From Aneurinibacillus sp. (GTDB taxonomy: Bacteria > Bacillota > UBA5301 > DYFA01): DNA of 64,000 bases. Shown piece by piece: positions 26,452-61,892 of the stretch. Numbering within the stretch: the stretch's first letter is position 1; each line of letters begins with the position of its first letter. The stretch is from positions 59,330 through 123,329 of the forward strand of contig DYFA01000061.1 in the NCBI GenBank assembly GCA_020725425.1, written 5' to 3'. Made by a program: the position numbers and the translations under genes. The notes under the pieces are model-generated. The model made no database searches and was not told the origin of the DNA. It worked only from the letters and a program-made list of their open reading frames with translations.

Positions 26452-26973
26452 TCAGGACTTGATGTTCATCGCCGAGTCGAGCTGGTCCACGCAGGACCGC
26501 ACGATGCGCTCGTTGTCCTCCACTGTGATGACCCGGTCCAACAGTTTGCTGGTGGCGAAGACCGTCAGGTTGGCGATCTCGCTCCGGATGTCCATCAAGA
26601 CCTTTTCTTTCTCTTTCTGAATATCGGCCCGGGCCCGCTGGAAGATCTTCAACGCCTCCTGCTCCGCCTGTTCGACCATCTCGCGCTTGAGCTCTTCGCC
26701 CTGCTTGGTGGCCTGAGCCAGCAGGTTGTCCGCATCCTGCTTGGCGTTGGCCATCATCCGCTGGTACTCGGCGAGCAGGTTCTCGGCCTCTTTCTTGGTT
26801 GCCGCGGCCTGCGCCAGCGAGTTTTCGATGAACGACTCACGCCGGGCCAGGATGTCCGATACCGGCTTGAACAAGACTTTATAGAGCAGGTAGACCACGA
26901 TGCCTACGTTTACGGCTTGAAAGATAAAGGTGGGAATGTGGAACGGAGAGATGCCACCGCCTTCAGCCGACAT
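26452..26973 (-). CDS. atpF: F0 ATP synthase subunit b
   Basis: TM then long coiled coil; VLFKPVSDILARRESFIENSLAQAAATKKEAENLL. Confidence 0.92.
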   Translation of the reverse strand: MSAEGGGISPFHIPTFIFQAVNVGIVVYLLYKVLFKPVSDILARRESFIENSLAQAAATKKEAENLLAEYQRMMANAKQDADNLLAQATKQGEELKREMVEQAEQEALKIFQRARADIQKEKEKVLMDIRSEIANLTVFATSKLLDRVITVEDNERIVRSCVDQLDSAMNIKS

Positions 26974-27061: not shown

Positions 27062-27292
27062 CTACTTGATCTTGGTCCACATCAGGATGGCCATAACAAA
27101 GGTAAACAGAGTCAGAGCTTCCATCATGGCCAGGGCCAGAAGGAGCGTCGTGCGGATATCGCCGGCCACCTCCGGCTGGCGCGACATCCCCTCCATAGCC
27201 TTCCCGGTCGCAAAAGCCTGACCTATGGCTGAAGAAATCGCCACTAGGGCGAGGGTGATGCCGACCGGCAGCAGAGTAAGTGCCAGATTCAT
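27062..27292 (-). CDS. atpE: F0 ATP synthase subunit c
   Basis: [40 protein letters not shown]. Confidence 0.95.
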
Positions 27293-27327: not shown

Positions 27328-28026
27328 CTAGTGCCCCTTGAGGATTCCTGTGAGGTAGCTGGTGGTGAGCAAGGTGAAGACGAATGCTTGCACCAGACCC
27401 ATGAGCGCGCCGAGAATCATGACCGGTGTCGGGAGGAAGAGCGGCGCCAGGATGAAAAGCACCGTGACTACCATCTTTTCCCCGAACATGTTTCCGAACA
27501 ACCGGATGGCCAGGGTGAAGGGTCTCATCAGCTCCTCGATCAGGGTCAACGGGGCCATGATCGGCGAGGGTGAGGTGTAATGGTGGATGTAGTGCTTGAG
27601 CCCCTTTTTCTTGGCCCCGATAACGTGCACCGTCAGGATGGCGAAGGCCCCCAGGCCGAACGTGGTCGAGAAGTCGGTGACCGGCGGGAGCATGTTAGGA
27701 ATGAGCCAGGACAGGTTGAGCGTCATCACCGCAATGAACATGCCGCCGATGAACCAGAGGTACTTGCGGCCCTCCCGGCCGAACGCCGGTTCGAGCAGGC
27801 CGTAGATAAACTCGACGAGCATCTCGAGCACGGACTGGAGCTTGCTCGGCTTGTTTTCCGAGAGCCGGCGGGTGGCGAGGTAACACAGGATCACCACGAT
27901 CCCCCAGATGATCCAGGTGTTGGCCACAGTCGAGGTGAGCCACGGAAGGCCGAACACGGGTTTCCGGTCGAAGTGCGAAAGGATGTTCGCCAGCTCGTGC
28001 ATTTTTTCCGGAGTCATGAAATTCAT
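27328..28026 (-). CDS. atpB: F0 ATP synthase subunit a
   Basis: LTLIEELMRPFTLAIRLFGNMFGEKMVV. Confidence 0.95.
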   Translation of the reverse strand: MNFMTPEKMHELANILSHFDRKPVFGLPWLTSTVANTWIIWGIVVILCYLATRRLSENKPSKLQSVLEMLVEFIYGLLEPAFGREGRKYLWFIGGMFIAVMTLNLSWLIPNMLPPVTDFSTTFGLGAFAILTVHVIGAKKKGLKHYIHHYTSPSPIMAPLTLIEELMRPFTLAIRLFGNMFGEKMVVTVLFILAPLFLPTPVMILGALMGLVQAFVFTLLTTSYLTGILKGH

Positions 28027-37949: not shown

Positions 37950-38276
37950 ATGGCTCTGGAGACGCTGCGCCTCCTGCGCGAGGCCGAGGATGCCGCCCTC
38001 CGTACTGTCGAGGAAGCGCGGCGGCAGGCGGCGGAGACAGTCCAGCAGGCACAAAGAGAAGCGACCCGACTGGTTCAGGAGGCTCGGGAGCGCGCCCAGG
38101 CCGAGGCCCGGCAGATGCTCCAGGCCGCCGAGGCCGAGCGCGTCAGGCGGCGGAACGAGGCCGCGGCCGAAGCCGAGCAGGAAGCAGCAGCCCTCCGCCG
38201 CCGGGCCGAGAACCGGTTGGCGGACGCAGCAGCACTGGTCGTAGAGAGGATTGTGCACCGCGATGGCCGTCGTTGA
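37950..38276 (+). CDS. A/V-type ATPase subunit H/G
   Basis: First gene of operon; Ala/Glu-rich coiled coil EEARRQAAETVQQAQREATRLVQEARE. Confidence 0.75.
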   Translation: MALETLRLLREAEDAALRTVEEARRQAAETVQQAQREATRLVQEARERAQAEARQMLQAAEAERVRRRNEAAAEAEQEAAALRRRAENRLADAAALVVERIVHRDGRR

Positions 38277-40290
38277 AATGCGCCGGGTGACCATCCTCGG
38301 TCACCAGTCGTTGCACGAGGCGGTTCTGCGGGAGCTCCAGACGCTGGGGACGGTCCAGGTGGACGACGTTCGCCAGGCGCTGCAGCCCGAGGAGCGGGAA
38401 GCGCTGTTTCCGGAGAACGGTACAGCCGGCTCTCCGGCGGAGGATGGCCAGGTCTCCCGGGACCGCCGGGCTGACGCCCACCTCGACACTCAGACGGCGC
38501 AGGTACAGCGCGCCCTTGACCTGCTCGACCGGTTCTTCCGGCCGAAGAAGGGCGTGATCGAGACCTTCGCCGGGATTCGCTTTCCCTTGTCGGAAAAGGA
38601 ATACCGTGAAAGAGCCCAGGCCACCCAGAGGATCGCCGAACTGGTGGCCCGGGCGAGGGACCTTGACGAGCGGCTGACCAGCCTGCAGGCCAGGGAAGCG
38701 GAGCTTAAGAGCCGCCTGGGGTTGCTCCGGCCGTGGAGCGACTTGGATGTGCCGCGCGAGGAGCTCCGCGACACCCGCCTGTTCCGCATCGTCACCGGGC
38801 AGGTGAGCGCCGGGGCGAGCGAGAGCCTCGGCGAGGAGCTGGCCGCGGCTTCACCGGCGGCCGGATACGAGGTGGTGGGCCAGAACCGGGAGGCCCTGCT
38901 GGTTGTTCTCTACTACCCCAAAGCGGACGAGGAGAGGGTTCTGTCGGTCGCCCGCAGTCACGACTGGACGGCGGTGACGCTGCCGGAGTTCGCGGGGACG
39001 GTGACCGACGAGATCGCGAGGGTGGAGAGCGCCCTCGACGAAATCGTCCCGGAGAGGCAGCGGCTCATCGCCGCAGTGGAGCAACTGCTCTCGGAACGGC
39101 TGACCCTCTATGCCCGCTACGAGCACCTGCGCAACGAACAGGTCAAGGAGGAGGCGAAGGAACGGCTCGGCTACACGGAGCGGCTCTTCCTATTGCGCGG
39201 CTGGACACGCCGGCGGGACGTGGCCCGGCTCCGCCAGGCCATGGAGCGCCTTTCCCCCGCGGTGGTGGTCGAGGACGAGGCTCCGGCGCCGGGTGAGGCC
39301 TACCCGGTCGACTTGGAGAATCCGCCGCTCGTCCGGCCGTTCGAAGTCGTGACGAGGGTGGCCGGGCTTCCTGCAGCCGGGGCACTCGATCCAAGCCCCT
39401 ACCTGGCGCCGTTCTTCTTCATCTTCTTCGGCTTGATGCTCGGAGACGCCGGATACGGCATTCTCCTCATGGTCGGCGGGTTGTGGCTGGTCAAGCGGGC
39501 CCGGGCCGTGGGGCTCGGCCGCCAGTTGATGTACCTCCTCTCCTTGTGCGGCGTTTCCACCTTCCTGGCCGGGATGCTGACCGGCTCCTGGTTCGGCAAC
39601 CTCTTCGGCATCCCGCCGCTCTGGTTCGACCCGCTGAAGAACCCGGTGAAGATGCTGGTGCTGTCGGTGGCCCTCGGGGTGGTGCAGATCTTCACGGCCC
39701 TGGGGATCAAGGCGTATGACAACATCCGCAAGGGGAACGCCTTGGACGCCCTGTACGACCAGGGATTCTGGCTTGTCTTCCTGAGCGGCCTCATCCTCAT
39801 GCTGGTCAGCGCGGCTGGCGGGGGGCTCGCCGCGCTGGCTCAACCCGCCAGGTACCTCGCCCTCGCCGGAGCCGTGGCCCTGGTCCTGACGCAGGGGAGG
39901 AGCAAGAGGAACATCCTGGCGCGCCTCGGTGCGGGGGTGCTCTCGCTCTACGGCGTGAGCGGTTACCTTTCAGACGTGTTATCCTATTCCCGATTGCTGG
40001 CGCTAGGGCTGTCCGGCACGGTGATCGCTATGGTTCTCAACTTCGGGGCCAACCTGATCAGGGGTGTGCCGGTGATCGGCTGGCTCCTCATGGCGGTCAT
40101 CCTCGTGGCGGGCCACCTCTTCGACCTGCTCATCAGCGCGGTTGGGGCGTACGTCCACGCCAGCCGGTTGCAGTACGTCGAGTTCTTCACCAAGTTCTTT
40201 GAAGCCGGGGGCAAACCGTTCAAACCGTTGACCGAAGGCCACCGCCACCTGCTCATCGAGCCGGAAGCGGCGCCTTCGGAAAGACAGTAG
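38263..40290 (+). CDS. A/V-type ATPase subunit I
   Basis: N-terminal coiled coil; FFFIFFGLMLGDAGYGILLM; C-terminal TM domain VLSYSRLLALGLSG. Confidence 0.93.
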   Translation: MAVVEMRRVTILGHQSLHEAVLRELQTLGTVQVDDVRQALQPEEREALFPENGTAGSPAEDGQVSRDRRADAHLDTQTAQVQRALDLLDRFFRPKKGVIETFAGIRFPLSEKEYRERAQATQRIAELVARARDLDERLTSLQAREAELKSRLGLLRPWSDLDVPREELRDTRLFRIVTGQVSAGASESLGEELAAASPAAGYEVVGQNREALLVVLYYPKADEERVLSVARSHDWTAVTLPEFAGTVTDEIARVESALDEIVPERQRLIAAVEQLLSERLTLYARYEHLRNEQVKEEAKERLGYTERLFLLRGWTRRRDVARLRQAMERLSPAVVVEDEAPAPGEAYPVDLENPPLVRPFEVVTRVAGLPAAGALDPSPYLAPFFFIFFGLMLGDAGYGILLMVGGLWLVKRARAVGLGRQLMYLLSLCGVSTFLAGMLTGSWFGNLFGIPPLWFDPLKNPVKMLVLSVALGVVQIFTALGIKAYDNIRKGNALDALYDQGFWLVFLSGLILMLVSAAGGGLAALAQPARYLALAGAVALVLTQGRSKRNILARLGAGVLSLYGVSGYLSDVLSYSRLLALGLSGTVIAMVLNFGANLIRGVPVIGWLLMAVILVAGHLFDLLISAVGAYVHASRLQYVEFFTKFFEAGGKPFKPLTEGHRHLLIEPEAAPSERQ

Positions 40291-40305
40291 AGGAGGTTTT
40301 GGTGA

Positions 40306-40788
<483 letters not shown>

Positions 40789-40789
40789 G

Positions 40790-41398
40790 GTGGGCGAGAT
40801 GTCCAACCTGGACAGGTTGCGAGAGACGCTGGCCGGAGAGGCGGCCGGCCAGGCGGCGGAGATCCGGGCCGAGGCGGAGCGCCGGGCGGCTGAGATTCGC
40901 GCCGAGGCCGGGGTGCAGGCGGAACGCCTGCGGGCCGAGGCGGTGAGGGCGGCGCAGCGGGAGATCGAGTTGCGCCAGCGGCAGTCGGCCGCCGAGGAGC
41001 GGCTCCTCCGGCGGCAGGCGCTCCTTGAGGCCAAAGCGGAACTGGTCGGGCGGGCGATGACGATTGCCCTCGAGAAGCTGGCGGACCTGCCCGAAGAGCA
41101 GTACCGCGCCCTCCTTTCCCGGCTGATCGAGGAGAATGCGCCGGACGGACAGGTGACGGTGGTGCTGAACCGCCGGGACCAGGCCCGCCTGGGAGAAGGT
41201 TTTGTCAAGCAGGTGGCCGGGAACCTGGCGGCCCGGGGGCGCCGGGTGGAACTGGTCCTGTCGCCTGCGGCGGAGGAGCTGGCCGGGGGAGTCAAGCTGG
41301 TCGGACGGGACTTCGAGGTCGACTGCTCACTCGAACGCCTGCTGGAGTTGGCGGCCGAGGCGGTCGAACCCGAGGTGGCCAAGGTGCTCTTTGGCTAG
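40790..41398 (+). CDS. A/V-type ATPase subunit E
   Basis: Operon position; coiled coil N-terminus, C-terminal VSPAAEELAGGVKLVGRDFEVDCSLERLL-type motif. Confidence 0.85.
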   Translation: MGEMSNLDRLRETLAGEAAGQAAEIRAEAERRAAEIRAEAGVQAERLRAEAVRAAQREIELRQRQSAAEERLLRRQALLEAKAELVGRAMTIALEKLADLPEEQYRALLSRLIEENAPDGQVTVVLNRRDQARLGEGFVKQVAGNLAARGRRVELVLSPAAEELAGGVKLVGRDFEVDCSLERLLELAAEAVEPEVAKVLFG

Positions 41399-41411
41399 CG
41401 GGAGGTGTGCC

Positions 41412-42557
41412 GTGACCCTGGCGGATATGCGCTTTGCTCACGCGGTGGCCCGGATCCGGGTGCTGGAGCAGCGGCTGCTGGACCGGGGGCGCCTGGAGCG
41501 GTTGCTGGAGGCGGCCGACGCCGGTGAAGTCCTTCACCTTCTGGCAGAGACGGAGTACGGGGCGGCAGCGGCGGCCGTCAAAGGGGGCCAGGACTACGAG
41601 CACGCCCTGGCCGCCGAGCTACAGCGCGTCTACGCCCTGGTCAAGTCGTTCTCGCCCGAACCCAGGCTCCTCGAGGCCTGGGCGGCCCGCCACACCTTCC
41701 ACAACCTGAAGGCGGTGTTGAAGGCGGCGCTGCGGGGCGAGGCGGCGGAGGAGGGGACCCTCTCCCCGCTGGGGGCGATGGACCGGGGGCGGCTGGAGGC
41801 GGTGGCCGCCGAGGCGGTGGGTGAAGGGGCCGCCCGGCCCGGCCAAGCGGCCGCCCCGGTGGCGGTTTCCCTGCCAACGGTTCCCGCCGGGCCGCCGCAG
41901 GTGCGGGTGGGAGGAACGGTCGGCGAACGGGTGGCCGGCCCGGAGGTCGAGGGGTACGTAACCCGGGCGGCGAAGACGGCGGTGGCGGCGTACCGGTCCT
42001 TCGGGGGTCCCGAGGAGATCGACCAGGCAGTGGACCGCGCCTATCAGGAGTACCTGCTCGCCCTGGCCCGCGTCCCGGGGGCGGAGTTCCTGCGGGGCTG
42101 GGTGGAGCGGTGGACCGACCTGGCCAACCTCCGCACGTTCCTCCGTTTCGCCCTGGCGGGACGCGACGCCGGCACCCTGCTCCGGGCGCTTCTGCCGGGT
42201 GGAGCAGTCCCGGTGGAGCGGCTGGTGGAGGCGTATGAGAGCGCCCCGGCTCCCCGGGCGAGACTTGAGGCCCTGCAGGTTCTGGCGGCGCGGACGCCGT
42301 ACGGCGGGCTGGTCAGCGAGGGTATATCCCGGTTTGAAGCTGAGGGGCTGCTTCACGGCTTCGAACGGCTGATGGACCTGTACCTCCTCGACTACCTGCG
42401 CCGGGCCAAGCGCGAGACCTTCGGCCTGGCCCCCGTGTGGGCGTACCTGATGGCGAAAGAGCAGGAGGTGCGTCTGTTGCGCCTGATCCTGGTGGGAAAG
42501 AGCGCCGGTCTGTCCCCGGAACGGCTGAGGGAGCGCATGTCCGATGTCTACGCCTAG
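41412..42557 (+). CDS. A/V-type ATPase subunit C
   Basis: Operon position; RIRVLEQRLLDRGRLERLLEAADAGEVLHLLAETEYG; TFHNLKAVLKAALRG. Confidence 0.88.
   Translation: MTLADMRFAHAVARIRVLEQRLLDRGRLERLLEAADAGEVLHLLAETEYGAAAAAVKGGQDYEHALAAELQRVYALVKSFSPEPRLLEAWAARHTFHNLKAVLKAALRGEAAEEGTLSPLGAMDRGRLEAVAAEAVGEGAARPGQAAAPVAVSLPTVPAGPPQVRVGGTVGERVAGPEVEGYVTRAAKTAVAAYRSFGGPEEIDQAVDRAYQEYLLALARVPGAEFLRGWVERWTDLANLRTFLRFALAGRDAGTLLRALLPGGAVPVERLVEAYESAPAPRARLEALQVLAARTPYGGLVSEGISRFEAEGLLHGFERLMDLYLLDYLRRAKRETFGLAPVWAYLMAKEQEVRLLRLILVGKSAGLSPERLRERMSDVYA
41827..41869 (+). repeat. In-frame stem-loop coding repeat, copy E
   Basis: GGGCCG-CC-CGGCCC-GGCCAAGCGGCCGCCCCGGTGG; encodes GAARPGQAAAPVA. Confidence 0.5.
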
Positions 42558-42873
42558 AATTGCGGTCCTGGGCGACCGGGCGTCGGTCCTGGGATTCAAG
42601 GTCCTGGGGTTCGACGCCGTGGTGGCGGAGGGTCCCGAGGCTGCCCGGGCGGCGCTGGCGCGCCTCGTGCAGCAGGGCTATGCCGTGATTTACGTTGTGG
42701 AAGCGACCGCCGCCGGGATGCTCGACGCCATCGCCGAGTACGCCGACCGGTCTCTGCCAGCCATCGTGCTAATCCCGGGGAGCCGGGGCAGCCTCGGCCT
42801 CGGTCTCGCCAAGATGAAGCGGGCCGTGGAAAAGGCGGTCGGAGCGGACATTCTGTTCGGGAAAGAGGGATGA
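42544..42873 (+). CDS. A/V-type ATPase subunit F
   Basis: [36 protein letters not shown]...[10 protein letters not shown]. Confidence 0.88.
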
Positions 42874-44645
42874 GCGTGGGCGGAAGGATCGTCAAGGTCT
42901 CGGGCCCGCTGGTGGTGGCCGAGGGGCTCCCTGAAGCCCGGATGTACGACGTGGTCCGGGTCAGCGAGGCCGGGTTGATCGGCGAGATCATCGAGGTGCG
43001 CGGGGACCGGGTCAGCATCCAGGTGTATGAAGAGACCGCCGGCCTGGGACCCGGAGAGCCCGTGGTCACCACGGGCGAGCCGCTCTCGGTGGAGCTGGCT
43101 CCGGGCCTCGTCGAGTCGATCTTTGACGGGATCCAGCGCCCGCTGAACGTGATCCGGGAACGGCACGGCGACCGTATCCAGCGGGGGGTGGACGCCACGC
43201 CTCTCGACCGGACGCGGCGCTGGCTGTTCGCGCCCCGGGTCAAGGCCGGCGACCAGGTGGTTCCGGGGGACATCCTCGGAACCGTGCAGGAGACGAAGAT
43301 CGTCGAGCACCGCATCCTGGTGCCGCCGGGAGTCTCGGGCAGGGTGGTCGAGGCTGCGGCCGGCGAGTTCACCATCACCGACCCGGTCGCCGTGGTGGAG
43401 CGGGCTGACGGCTCCCGGGTCGAGGTGGCGATGCTCCAGCGGTGGCCGGTGCGGAAAGGCCGCCCGGTGGCGGAGAAGCTGGCTCCGACCGAGCCGTTGC
43501 TCACCGGGCAGCGGATCATCGACACCTTCTTCCCGGTGGCCAAGGGCGGCACGGCCTGCGTCCCCGGCCCCTTCGGCTCGGGCAAGACGGTCGTCCAGCA
43601 CCAGCTGGCCAAGTGGCCCGACGCCGACCTCATCGTCTACGTGGGCTGCGGCGAGCGGGGCAACGAGATGACCGACGTCCTGATGGAGTTCCCCGAACTC
43701 CGGGACCCCAAGTCGGGCGAGCCGCTGATGAAACGGACGGTCCTTATCGCCAACACTTCCGACATGCCGGTGGCGGCCCGGGAGGCCTCCATCTACACGG
43801 GCATCACGATCGCCGAGTACTTCCGGGACATGGGGTACTCGGTGGCGCTGATGGCCGACTCCACCTCCCGCTGGGCGGAGGCGCTGCGGGAGATGTCCGG
43901 AAGGCTGGAGGAGATGCCAGGCGAGGAGGGGTACCCGGCCTACCTCGGGTCGCGCCTCGCCGAGTTCTACGAGCGGGCCGGGAAGGCGAAGGTCCTGGGG
44001 AGCGACGGACGCCTCGGGGCACTCACCGTCGTGGGCGCGGTCTCGCCGCCCGGCGGCGACCTCTCGGAGCCGGTCACCCAGAACACGCTGCGGGTGGTGA
44101 AGGTCTTCTGGGGCCTCGACGCCAACCTGGCGTACCGGCGCCACTTCCCCGCCATCAACTGGCTCATCAGCTACTCGCTCTACGTGGACCAGGTCGACGC
44201 CTTCCTTCGGGAGCAGTACGGCGAGGAGGCGGTCGGGTTGCGGCAGGAGGCCATGGCGCTCCTGCAGGAGGAGGCATCGCTGGAAGAGATTGTGCGTCTG
44301 GTCGGAGTCGACGCCCTCTCGGCGGCGGACCGGCTGACTCTGGAGGCGGCGCGGAGCGTCCGGGAAGACTTCCTCCACCAGAACGCCTTCCACGAGGTCG
44401 ACACCTACACGTCGCTCGAAAAGCAGATCCGGCTGCTCGGCGCGGTGCTGGCCTGGTACCGGGAGGCCAAGGAGGCCCTGGCGGCTGGAGCCGCTCTGGA
44501 GAAGCTGTTGAAGCTGCCGGTCCGGGAGGCTATCGCCCGGGCCAGGTACCTGCCGGAGCACGACGCTGAGGCCTTCGCCCGGTTGCGGGCGGAGATCGCC
44601 TCCCAGGTGGCAGCGGTCAGGGAGGAGGGCGAGGTGGTTGCTTAA
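42870..44645 (+). CDS. A/V-type ATPase catalytic subunit A
   Basis: [33 protein letters not shown]. Confidence 0.96.
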
Positions 44646-46032
44646 GGAGTACCGGACGGTCCGGGAAGTCGCCGGACCCTTGATGCTGGTCGAAGGGGTC
44701 GAGGGGGCCAAGTACGGGGAACTCGTCGAGATTGAAGCCCGGGAGGGCGACCAGCGGCGCGGGCGGGTGCTGGAAGTCAGTGGTGACCACGCCCTGGTGC
44801 AGCTCTTCGAGGGGTCGGCCGGGATCAACCTGGGCCAGGCCAAGGTGCGGTTTCTGGGTCGCGGGATCGAGCTGGCGGTGGCCCCCGACATCCTCGGCGG
44901 CGTGTACGACGGGCTGGGGCGGCCGCGGGGCAACACGCCGCGCCTTGTGGCGGAGCGGCGGATGGACATCAACGGCCTGCCGATCAACCCCTGGGCCCGG
45001 GACTACCCGAACGAGTTCATCCAGACCGGGATCTCGACCATCGACGGCTTGAACACCCTGGTGCGCGGGCAGAAGCTCCCGGTCTTCTCCGGCGCCGGCC
45101 TGCCCCATGCCCAGATCGCGGCGCAGATCGCCCGCCAGGCGAAGGTCCTCGGGGCGGAGGAAAAATTCGCCGTGGTCTTCGGGGCGATGGGGATCACCTT
45201 CGAGGAAGCCAACTTCTTCATGGAGGACTTCCGGGCGACGGGGGCGCTGGAGCGTTCAGTGCTCTTCATCAACCTGGCCAACGACCCGGCGATCGAGCGG
45301 ATCGCTACCCCCCGGATGGCCCTGACCTGCGCCGAGTACCTGGCTTACGACCTCGACATGCACGTTCTGGTCATCCTGAGCGACATGACGAACTACTGCG
45401 AGGCGCTCCGGGAGGTCTCGGCGGCCCGCAGAGAGGTCCCCGGCCGGCGGGGCTACCCCGGCTACCTCTACACCGACCTGGCCACCATCTACGAGCGAGC
45501 CGGCCGGATCAAGGAGCGGAAGGGGTCGATCACCCTGATCCCCATCCTCACCATGCCGGAAGACGACCTGACCCACCCGATCCCCGACCTGACCGGATAC
45601 ATCACCGAAGGGCAGATCATCCTCAGCCGGGAGCTGCACCGCAAGGGCATCTATCCGCCGGTCAACGTCCTGCCCTCCCTCTCCCGACTGAAAGACAAAG
45701 GGATCGGCCCGGGCAAGACCCGGGAGGACCACGCCGACACCATGAATCAGCTCTACGCCGCCTACGCCCGGGGCAAGGAGGCCAAGGAGCTGGCGGTCAT
45801 CCTCGGCGAGGCGGCCCTGAGCGAGACCGACAAGCTCTTCGCCAAGTTCGCCGACGCCTTCGAGGACCGGTACGTCCGGCAGGGGCCGCGGGAGGACCGC
45901 TCGATCGACCAGACCCTGGACCTGGGCTGGGAACTCCTGGCGATGCTCCCGCGGGCCGAACTGAAGCGCATCCGGGACGAGTTCCTGGCCAAGTACCTGC
46001 CAACCCCGGCGGACTCGACAGCCGCCCAGTAA
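44638..46032 (+). CDS. A/V-type ATPase subunit B
   Basis: [41 protein letters not shown]. Confidence 0.96.
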
Positions 46033-46054
46033 CGCGACGCAAGGAGAGTCTCGC

Positions 46055-46696
46055 ATGGAACTGCGGGTCAATCCCAACCGCATGCAGCTTCTACGGCTCC
46101 GGGTGCGCCTCAAGACGGCGCGCCGGGGCCACAAGATGCTGAAGGACAAGCGGGACGAGTTGATGCGGCGCTTTCTCGATCTGGTGCGGCAGAACAAGGA
46201 GTTGCGCCAGGTGGTGGAGGAGCGGCTGGGCCGGGCGGCCGGCCAGCTTCTGATGGCGACAGCCAGCGCCTCGCCCGCGGTCATCGAGGAGGCGCTGGCC
46301 TTCCCGAAACAAAAGCTCGACCTGAGGGTGAAGAAAGACAACATCATGGGCGTGCGCGTGGCCCGGTTCGACTTCTCGTGGGGTGGCGCCGGGGGGGAGG
46401 CCGACCTTTACCCTTACGGCCCGGCCCACACCCCGGCGGATCTGGACGCGGCCATCAAGACCCTGAGCGAGACCCTCCCTGACCTCTTGCGGCTGGCGGA
46501 GATCGAGAAGGCGGCGGAGCTTCTCGCCGTCGAGGTGGAGAAGACCCGCCGCCGGGTGAACGCCCTGGAATACGTCCTGATCCCGAAACTCGAGGAGACG
46601 ATCAAGTACATCACGATGAAGCTGGACGAGGCCGAACGGGGGAACCTGACCCGCCTGATGAAGATCAAGCAGATGGTGCATGAGGCTGAGGCGTAG
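46055..46696 (+). CDS. A/V-type ATPase subunit D
   Basis: VNPNRMQLLRLRVRLKTARRGHKMLKDKRDELMRRF; C-terminal VNALEYVLIPKLEETIKYI. Confidence 0.95.
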   Translation: MELRVNPNRMQLLRLRVRLKTARRGHKMLKDKRDELMRRFLDLVRQNKELRQVVEERLGRAAGQLLMATASASPAVIEEALAFPKQKLDLRVKKDNIMGVRVARFDFSWGGAGGEADLYPYGPAHTPADLDAAIKTLSETLPDLLRLAEIEKAAELLAVEVEKTRRRVNALEYVLIPKLEETIKYITMKLDEAERGNLTRLMKIKQMVHEAEA

Positions 46697-60698: not shown

Positions 60699-60739
60699 AG
60701 AACGCGTATACTGGCTGTGACGGGGGGTGGTCGGTGAGC

Positions 60740-60916
60740 ATGCCGAGAAGATGCCTAATCTGTGGCAAGCCCGAACCCGCTGAACCCTTGGAGCCGGGGG
60801 AGGAGAGGCCCCGCGGGCGCGGCAAGCGCAACAAGCGCCCTTACGTCTGTGAGATCTGCAAAGCCAGAGTCCAGTACGAAGCTAAAGAAGGACAAAAGCT
60901 GCCGAAACCGATGTAA
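60740..60916 (+). CDS. Small zinc-ribbon protein (DUF2197-like)
   Basis: MPRRCLICGKPEP...RPYVCEICKARVQYEAKEGQK. Confidence 0.75.
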   Translation: MPRRCLICGKPEPAEPLEPGEERPRGRGKRNKRPYVCEICKARVQYEAKEGQKLPKPM

Positions 60917-60946: not shown

Positions 60947-60972
60947 CCTGCTAGAGCGCTAGCAGGTTTTTT
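60947..60972 (+). terminator. Rho-independent terminator
   Basis: CCTGCTAG-AGCG-CTAGCAGG-TTTTTT. Confidence 0.85.
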
Positions 60973-61019: not shown

Positions 61020-61376
61020 GTGGGGAATGCTCAGGAAAAGGCCGAGCGGGGCGCGCCTCTTGGCCACCCGGTGGCCCGAGTGGTGACCGCGGGGGACATC
61101 AGTTCCCAGCTGCGCCAAGAGGCCGCCGCCAAGATCCGGAAACTGGTCGGTGACGCCGTGGAAGTGGTGTTTGAAGTCGACCCGGCCATCATCGGCGGAA
61201 TGGTGGTCCACCTGCCCGACCGGGTGATCGACCTGAGCCTGGCCGGCCGGTTCCGGAGTTACGGCCGGGCGGTTCAGGAGATCATCGGGAGCCATCTTCA
61301 AGCTCTGGAAGGCTGGGCCAGAGCCGAGGGGTCTCCGGCGCTCAGCGTTGCGGGGCTGGCGGCAGGAAAGGAGTAG
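61020..61376 (+). CDS. Orphan F1-delta (AtpH/OSCP) C-terminal-domain-like protein, copy 1
   Basis: VTAGDISSQLRQEAAAKIRKLVGDAVEVVFEVDPAIIGGMVVHLPDRVIDLSLAGRF. Confidence 0.65.
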   Translation: MGNAQEKAERGAPLGHPVARVVTAGDISSQLRQEAAAKIRKLVGDAVEVVFEVDPAIIGGMVVHLPDRVIDLSLAGRFRSYGRAVQEIIGSHLQALEGWARAEGSPALSVAGLAAGKE

Positions 61377-61382
61377 AGCGGC

Positions 61383-61892
61383 ATGGAGAACTGGCGGCGT
61401 CACATTGCCAAAGCCGAGGGCGTCACCGCAACCGTTCCGGAGTTGGCGGAGATGCGCCCGCTTTACCGGTCGGACCTGCGGGTGACGGTCCGCAGCGTCG
61501 AGCCGCTCTCTCCGGAGATCGTCAAGGCGATCGCCGACAAAGTGCGGCGGGCTTATCAGCGGGAGGTCCTGATCGAAGTCGAGCTCGATCCCTCCCTGCT
61601 CGGCGGGCTGGTGGTCATGATCGGCCACCGGGTCATCGACATGAGCCTGGCGACCCACCTGCGACGGATGTCCGCCCAGATCGCGCAACGCCTCGAGGAC
61701 GTGGTCAAGGAACTCGATCAGACCTGGGAGAGGCGCCTGAACACCCGGATGGAGGAGTTCGTGGCGGACATGCGCCGGCGGGTGCTTGAGCTCCCGGCGA
61801 GCGAGCCCGCCCCGTCGGCTGCCCGCGAGGTCGGCCTGAGCGCCGTTCCCGAGTCCGCCGAGGTCCTGGCGGCGGCTCCGGCCGAGACCTGA
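61383..61892 (+). CDS. Orphan F1-delta (AtpH/OSCP) C-terminal-domain-like protein, copy 2
   Basis: VRSVEPLSPEIVKAIADKVRRAYQREVLIEVELDPSLLGGLVVMIGHRVIDMSLATHLRRM. Confidence 0.68.
   Translation: MENWRRHIAKAEGVTATVPELAEMRPLYRSDLRVTVRSVEPLSPEIVKAIADKVRRAYQREVLIEVELDPSLLGGLVVMIGHRVIDMSLATHLRRMSAQIAQRLEDVVKELDQTWERRLNTRMEEFVADMRRRVLELPASEPAPSAAREVGLSAVPESAEVLAAAPAET

Follow-up and report, generated by a model that had tools for sequence, protein, structure and literature searches.

Two tandem genes of a Bacillota genome (G000; 2.38 Mb, 97% complete) encode stand-alone members of the delta/OSCP superfamily that consist of the delta C-terminal domain (CTD) alone, preceded by the last helix of the N-terminal domain. 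The window, which is the whole stretch of 64,000 nucleotides that was analysed, corresponds to positions 59330-123329 of contig C52. In it, the two genes (delta1 and delta2) and the elements ahead of them are arranged as follows:

60734..60916, forward strand: small zinc-ribbon protein, DUF2197-like (CxxC...CxxC), with a weak PF09963 match below the cut-off
60947..60972, forward strand: terminator-like hairpin CCTGCTAG-AGCG-CTAGCAGG-TTTTTT, read directly from the sequence, between the zinc-ribbon gene and delta1
61020..61376, forward strand: delta1, stand-alone delta/OSCP C-terminal-domain protein of 118 aa, GTG start
61383..61892, forward strand: delta2, stand-alone delta/OSCP C-terminal-domain protein of 169 aa, ATG start

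The hairpin is absent from the terminator listing of the consensus scanner. The first-listed start of the delta1 reading frame is 60984; the GTG at 61020, with GAGGAGGGGG ahead of it, is the better start, and the ATG of delta2 is preceded by AAAGGAG. Both tandem genes thus have good ribosome-binding sites, and their codon-position composition is that of genuine genes (GC3 of 0.78 for delta1 and 0.88 for delta2). A genome-wide search revealed four delta-like places in G000, namely a full-length atpH on contig C50, delta1, delta2, and a third stand-alone delta-CTD on contig C15. The three stand-alone paralogues share a mutual identity of only 28-35%. The third one (L003:1411-1809; L006:8862-9260) is located 3' of a gene whose product, judged by eye, resembles a YprB-type RNase H-like nuclease; this gene itself lies 3' of an 825-aa ORF.

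The Pfam OSCP model (PF00213) matched delta1 with an E-value of 1.1e-11 and 45.6 bits over model positions 104-169 of 172, and delta2 with 5.5e-18 and 66.1 bits over positions 91-171 of 172. Both scores exceed the gathering cut-off of 22.3 bits, and in neither protein was there a Pfam match to the N-terminal half of the model. The delta models of NCBIfam also matched over the C-terminal stretch only, and the scores against the AtpH equivalog TIGR01145 (30.9 and 41.9 bits for delta1 and delta2, respectively) were below its cut-off of 57.5. Since an N-terminal domain, a score over the equivalog cut-off and an ATP synthase operon context were each looked for and none of them was found, delta1 and delta2 are filed outside the AtpH equivalog. 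Profile-profile comparison of the stand-alone proteins with AtpH gave a probability of 99.8% and an E-value of 9.4e-29 at 30% identity, with an alignment spanning from the N-terminal helix to the C-terminal helix. AlphaFold2, run on a 10-sequence alignment (mean pLDDT ∼73, and 80-90 over most of the core), predicted a strand-helix-strand-strand-strand-helix core. When the models were compared with the PDB by Foldseek, all top matches were delta/OSCP C-terminal domains solved by cryo-EM. The likeness is confined to a core of ∼65-80 residues; with tails predicted at low confidence, TM-scores stay modest. Pfam, profile-profile, AlphaFold2 and Foldseek analyses thus agree with an earlier sequence-only reading, which had seen here two tandem stand-alone proteins like the F1 delta C-terminal domain and had proposed structure prediction as a check. 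That the N-terminal F1-binding domain is missing, as this reading also stated, is borne out by matches that begin at model positions 91-104 of 172, where only the last helix of that domain aligns.

The stand-alone proteins start with M-x-x-W-R in 10 out of 11 cases, and their common N-terminal helix, MExWRxxIAxEY, lines up with the helix that closes the N-terminal domain of delta. In delta2, this helix reads MENWRRHIAKAE, and the C-terminal helix is long. The spacing of I-A-x-x-Y ... R-G is equal in the AtpH of G000 and in paralogue C, and the stand-alone proteins therefore look like AtpH that was cut off ahead of the last helix of its N-terminal domain. The delta C-terminal pattern described earlier is indeed common to these proteins and AtpH, with the CTD core residues D-P, (A/G)-G, D-x-S and R-L retained, but the stand-alone proteins deviate from it at signature positions. 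Specifically, the Ala before the first CTD helix of AtpH is a Val in 9 of the 11 stand-alone proteins, and an equal number have an Asn two residues ahead of I/V-D-P. The basic residue of the hairpin, which is K or R in all 13 AtpH sequences, is basic or His in five stand-alone proteins and lost in six, while the Gly or Ala that follows the conserved Asp in AtpH has been replaced by Met or Leu in 11 out of 11. These changed positions are derived features of a subfamily that is under its own constraint. The pN/pS ratio between orthologues was 0.24-0.49, with synonymous sites saturated; the stand-alone family is real and under purifying selection. In a tree of 27 CTDs, the stand-alone proteins were set apart from AtpH (100/98). 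Because two long-branch fusion domains fell among the stand-alone proteins in this tree, we regard a single origin of the family as no more than likely.

Stand-alone delta-CTDs were found in four of the seven genomes of the class (G000, G003, G005 and G006), and none was detected in G001, G002 and G004. The genomes G003, G005 and G006 represent one other family and have two to three copies each; three paralogues are present in G000, G003 and G006. The cluster order in that family is delta A, zinc ribbon, MoxR AAA-VWA, delta B, delta C, SpoIIE and TilS, where delta A and MoxR AAA-VWA are absent from G005. A DnaJ-like zinc finger is also among the neighbours in these relatives. The window retains the order zinc ribbon, delta1 and delta2, and spoIIE and a TilS-like gene are located on contig C55. 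On the basis of gene order, paralogue B is the syntenic counterpart of delta1, and paralogue C that of delta2; the pairwise identities (∼28-36%) are indecisive for this assignment. The zinc-ribbon gene is the only neighbour conserved across all four carriers (homologues in L038, L039 and L040). No MoxR homologue was found in G000 or G005, and G004 has the cluster of zinc ribbon, MoxR, VWA and SpoIIE genes with no detectable delta-CTD. An obligate partnership with MoxR-VWA was therefore rejected, and only the zinc ribbon is tied to the delta-CTDs. When a profile of the family was searched against 300 Bacillota genomes, the last stand-alone member had an E-value of 6.3e-31 and the first match of AtpH length 1.2e-21, and there were no short stand-alone proteins outside the class among the matches listed. 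Public genomes with these genes are UBA5301, GB_MAG18_067 and AS09scLD_310.

The window also contains genes for F0, which are the following:

26452..26973, reverse strand: atpF, subunit b, over the TIGR01144 cut-off; candidate partner of the stand-alone proteins
27062..27292, reverse strand: atpE, subunit c, over the TIGR01260 cut-off
27328..28026, reverse strand: atpB, subunit a, over the TIGR01131 cut-off

These genes are 33 kb away from delta1 and delta2, and no F-ATPase gene adjoins the pair, in agreement with the initial observation that it is not beside ATPase genes. The F1 genes of G000 form a delta-alpha-gamma-beta-epsilon operon on contig C50 that is headed by the full-length atpH and encodes an ordinary AtpA of 509 aa. 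The idea that the pair replaces a missing AtpH was rejected on this ground. Throughout the class (seven genomes), the a/c/b genes and the atpH-atpA genes were on separate contigs, and no cross matches between F0 and F1 genes were found in the examined flanks. The F0-only operon is therefore one half of an ordinary split F-ATPase, which is a trait of the class and does not point to a novel stator. With a complete F-ATPase in the genome, the suggestion that the pair and the F0-only operon make up a rearranged or novel stator system had to be abandoned. The co-occurrence that had been proposed as a check for it gave no support either, since the split is present in seven out of seven genomes, including the three that have no stand-alone delta-CTD, while the delta-CTDs are present in four out of seven; the two are thus unlinked. 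As an argument against itself, the sequence-only reading had further listed that such proteins, unrelated to AtpF, might be present where the genome encodes an ordinary F-ATPase in full. The first half of this argument applies, since full-length AtpH, alpha and b are present in every genome with stand-alone delta-CTDs. Each of the seven class genomes, including G000, has one b gene over the PF00430 cut-off; a second b subunit as a dedicated partner was rejected, as there was no further match over this cut-off in any of them. The gamma subunit of G000 (AtpG; L005:5225-6271, reverse strand; 348 aa) contains a charged low-complexity insertion of ∼60 residues. An A/V-type ATPase gene set occupies positions 38251-46696 of the window (E, A, B and D matched, the others assigned by position only), and a second such set of G000 is located on contig C18.

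What might these proteins do beside a complete ATP synthase? Our tentative prediction is that delta1 and delta2, which belong to a class-restricted family of AtpH paralogues, bind AtpF and act as stalk caps or as competitors of AtpH. It is by the C-terminal domain of delta that the b-dimer C-termini are held, which makes AtpF the likeliest ligand. Subunit b contacts the C-terminal part of delta, and delta is needed for b2 assembly (review PMC6131620); residue-level delta-b contacts were looked for in the literature and not found. These paralogues have lost the N-terminal domain of AtpH except for its last helix; what remains is this helix together with the linker and the CTD. The free delta-CTD would dock on the C-terminus of the only subunit b of the genome, thereby competing with or supplementing AtpH. 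Unlike AtpH, the bound delta-CTD would be unable to seat AtpF on the F1 axis, and such stalk caps or competitors could tune F1-F0 assembly or coupling. Against AtpF binding stand the distance of the genes from those for ATP synthase and the zinc-ribbon/MoxR-VWA/SpoIIE neighbourhood in the relatives. Moreover, since the hairpin is altered and Met or Leu follows the conserved Asp, the ligand may differ from that of AtpH.

About as plausible as caps or competitors that bind AtpF is a repurposing of the domain, which would then serve as an adaptor for another coiled-coil or ring complex off the F-ATPase, for instance MoxR-VWA, an A/V-type ATPase stalk or a flagellar export component. A delta-derived pair with a different task was also among the proposals of the sequence-only reading. 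The neighbours in the relatives (zinc ribbon, MoxR AAA, VWA, DnaJ-like zinc finger and SpoIIE), among which there are no ATPase genes, are in line with this, and paralogue A travels with MoxR-VWA: G003 and G006 have both, and G005 has neither. An A/V-type ATPase is also present in all four carriers, and the signature changes sit in the hairpin. However, the CTD core residues are retained, and neither the cluster of G004 nor the delta-CTDs of G000 and G005 fit a role with MoxR.

Added stalks are less likely, because a full AtpH is always present. In Bacillus PS3, when delta is shortened at its N-terminus and joined to alpha, b2 is bound in the canonical way and up to three stalks can be accommodated, the H+/ATP ratio of the engineered enzyme being 5.8 (PMC12229609). 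The canonical b2 binding in that enzyme also favours AtpF as the ligand of the stand-alone proteins. Truncated deltas that are not linked to alpha might likewise seat extra b dimers on F1, so that the number of a subunits, and with it the H+/ATP ratio, would vary. Natural truncated-delta::alpha fusions in Acidaminococcus (PMC12229609), delta-CTD::AtpA fusions in other Bacillota families, and the presence of three stand-alone paralogues each in G000, G003 and G006 speak for such a multi-stalk synthase. Nevertheless we consider it improbable: the authors of the PS3 study concluded that the N-terminal domain of delta restricts the enzyme to one stalk, and every carrier has an ordinary AtpH with this domain. 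In addition, they chose the alpha fusion for fear that the CTD alone would not be retained on F1 (PMC12229609), and the stand-alone genes share no transcript with those for ATP synthase. Slightly more doubtful still is the specific scenario that free delta-CTDs equip the F-ATPase on demand with one or two extra b-dimer/a-subunit stators, so that their expression would shift the H+/ATP ratio. Finally, decaying duplicates or truncated atpH copies devoid of function are very improbable, since shortness relative to AtpH and the low mutual identity of the G000 paralogues are outweighed by open frames, strong ribosome-binding sites, purifying selection between orthologues, synteny conserved across two families and a common derived N-terminal motif; selection, synteny and profile scores likewise contradict a pseudogene or chance match.

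Our literature search found no paper on free delta-CTDs. As far as these searches reach, there is no earlier description of free delta-CTDs that occur in several copies alongside a complete ATP synthase, while the delta CTD itself and its occurrence as a fusion lacking the N-terminal domain are already known. An ordinary delta and selected free CTDs in one lineage offer a natural test system for the capping, exchange and multiplication of stalks. If repurposing is true, the delta fold would have been taken up as an adaptor in its own right, a possibility suggested by the related FliH and V-type E; if added stators are true, this would be a natural ATP synthase with an H+/ATP ratio that is adjustable by small stand-alone delta proteins.

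Compared with known systems, the stand-alone proteins are closest to AtpH/OSCP (PF00213), with a homologous CTD, preceding helix and core motif and a matching fold. They differ from it in having no more than the last helix of the F1-binding N-terminal domain, in occurring as extra copies beside a full AtpH, and in their changed hairpin and longer C-terminal helix. The truncated-delta::alpha fusions (engineered in PS3, PDB 9jc1; natural in Acidaminococcus fermentans, PMC12229609) share a delta CTD without the N-terminal domain. There, however, the CTD is covalently linked to alpha within the ATP synthase operon, whereas the stand-alone CTDs are unlinked and their genes lie apart from that operon; with its ordinary AtpA and full AtpH, G000 has neither such a fusion nor an operon without the delta N-terminal domain. 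We observed fusions of this kind at four loci in two other Bacillota families:

L083:2660-4462, reverse strand: delta-CTD::AtpA
L084:3827-5716, forward strand: delta-CTD::AtpA
L085:906-2063, forward strand: delta-CTD::AtpA
L087:3697-5532, forward strand: delta-CTD::AtpA

In L083, L084 and L087, the delta-CTD is fused to the N-terminus of AtpA, giving proteins of ∼600-630 aa. The fusion genes follow b and precede gamma and beta, and are what nature offers as an equivalent of the multi-stalk enzyme made by engineering. In one genome (G054), two fusion loci coexist with a full AtpH encoded at another site, and the 290-aa delta of another (G050; L086:3692-4564, forward strand) apparently carries two C-terminal domains behind an N-terminal one. 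The ATP synthase of Chloroflexus aurantiacus (PDB 9itj/9itk) has a short delta of 157 aa, with 12 chains in six entries (a mean of two per entry); the literature search found no paper on these structures. The mycobacterial b-delta fusion (e.g. PDB 7jg5) contains a delta CTD of the same family, but as one 445-residue chain with b that substitutes for atpH, whereas the stand-alone proteins are additional to AtpH. The C-terminal domains of V-type subunit E and FliH are weakly similar to delta, and FliH-FliI appeared low in the Foldseek list, but these proteins have a coiled-coil stalk of their own and score far below AtpH.
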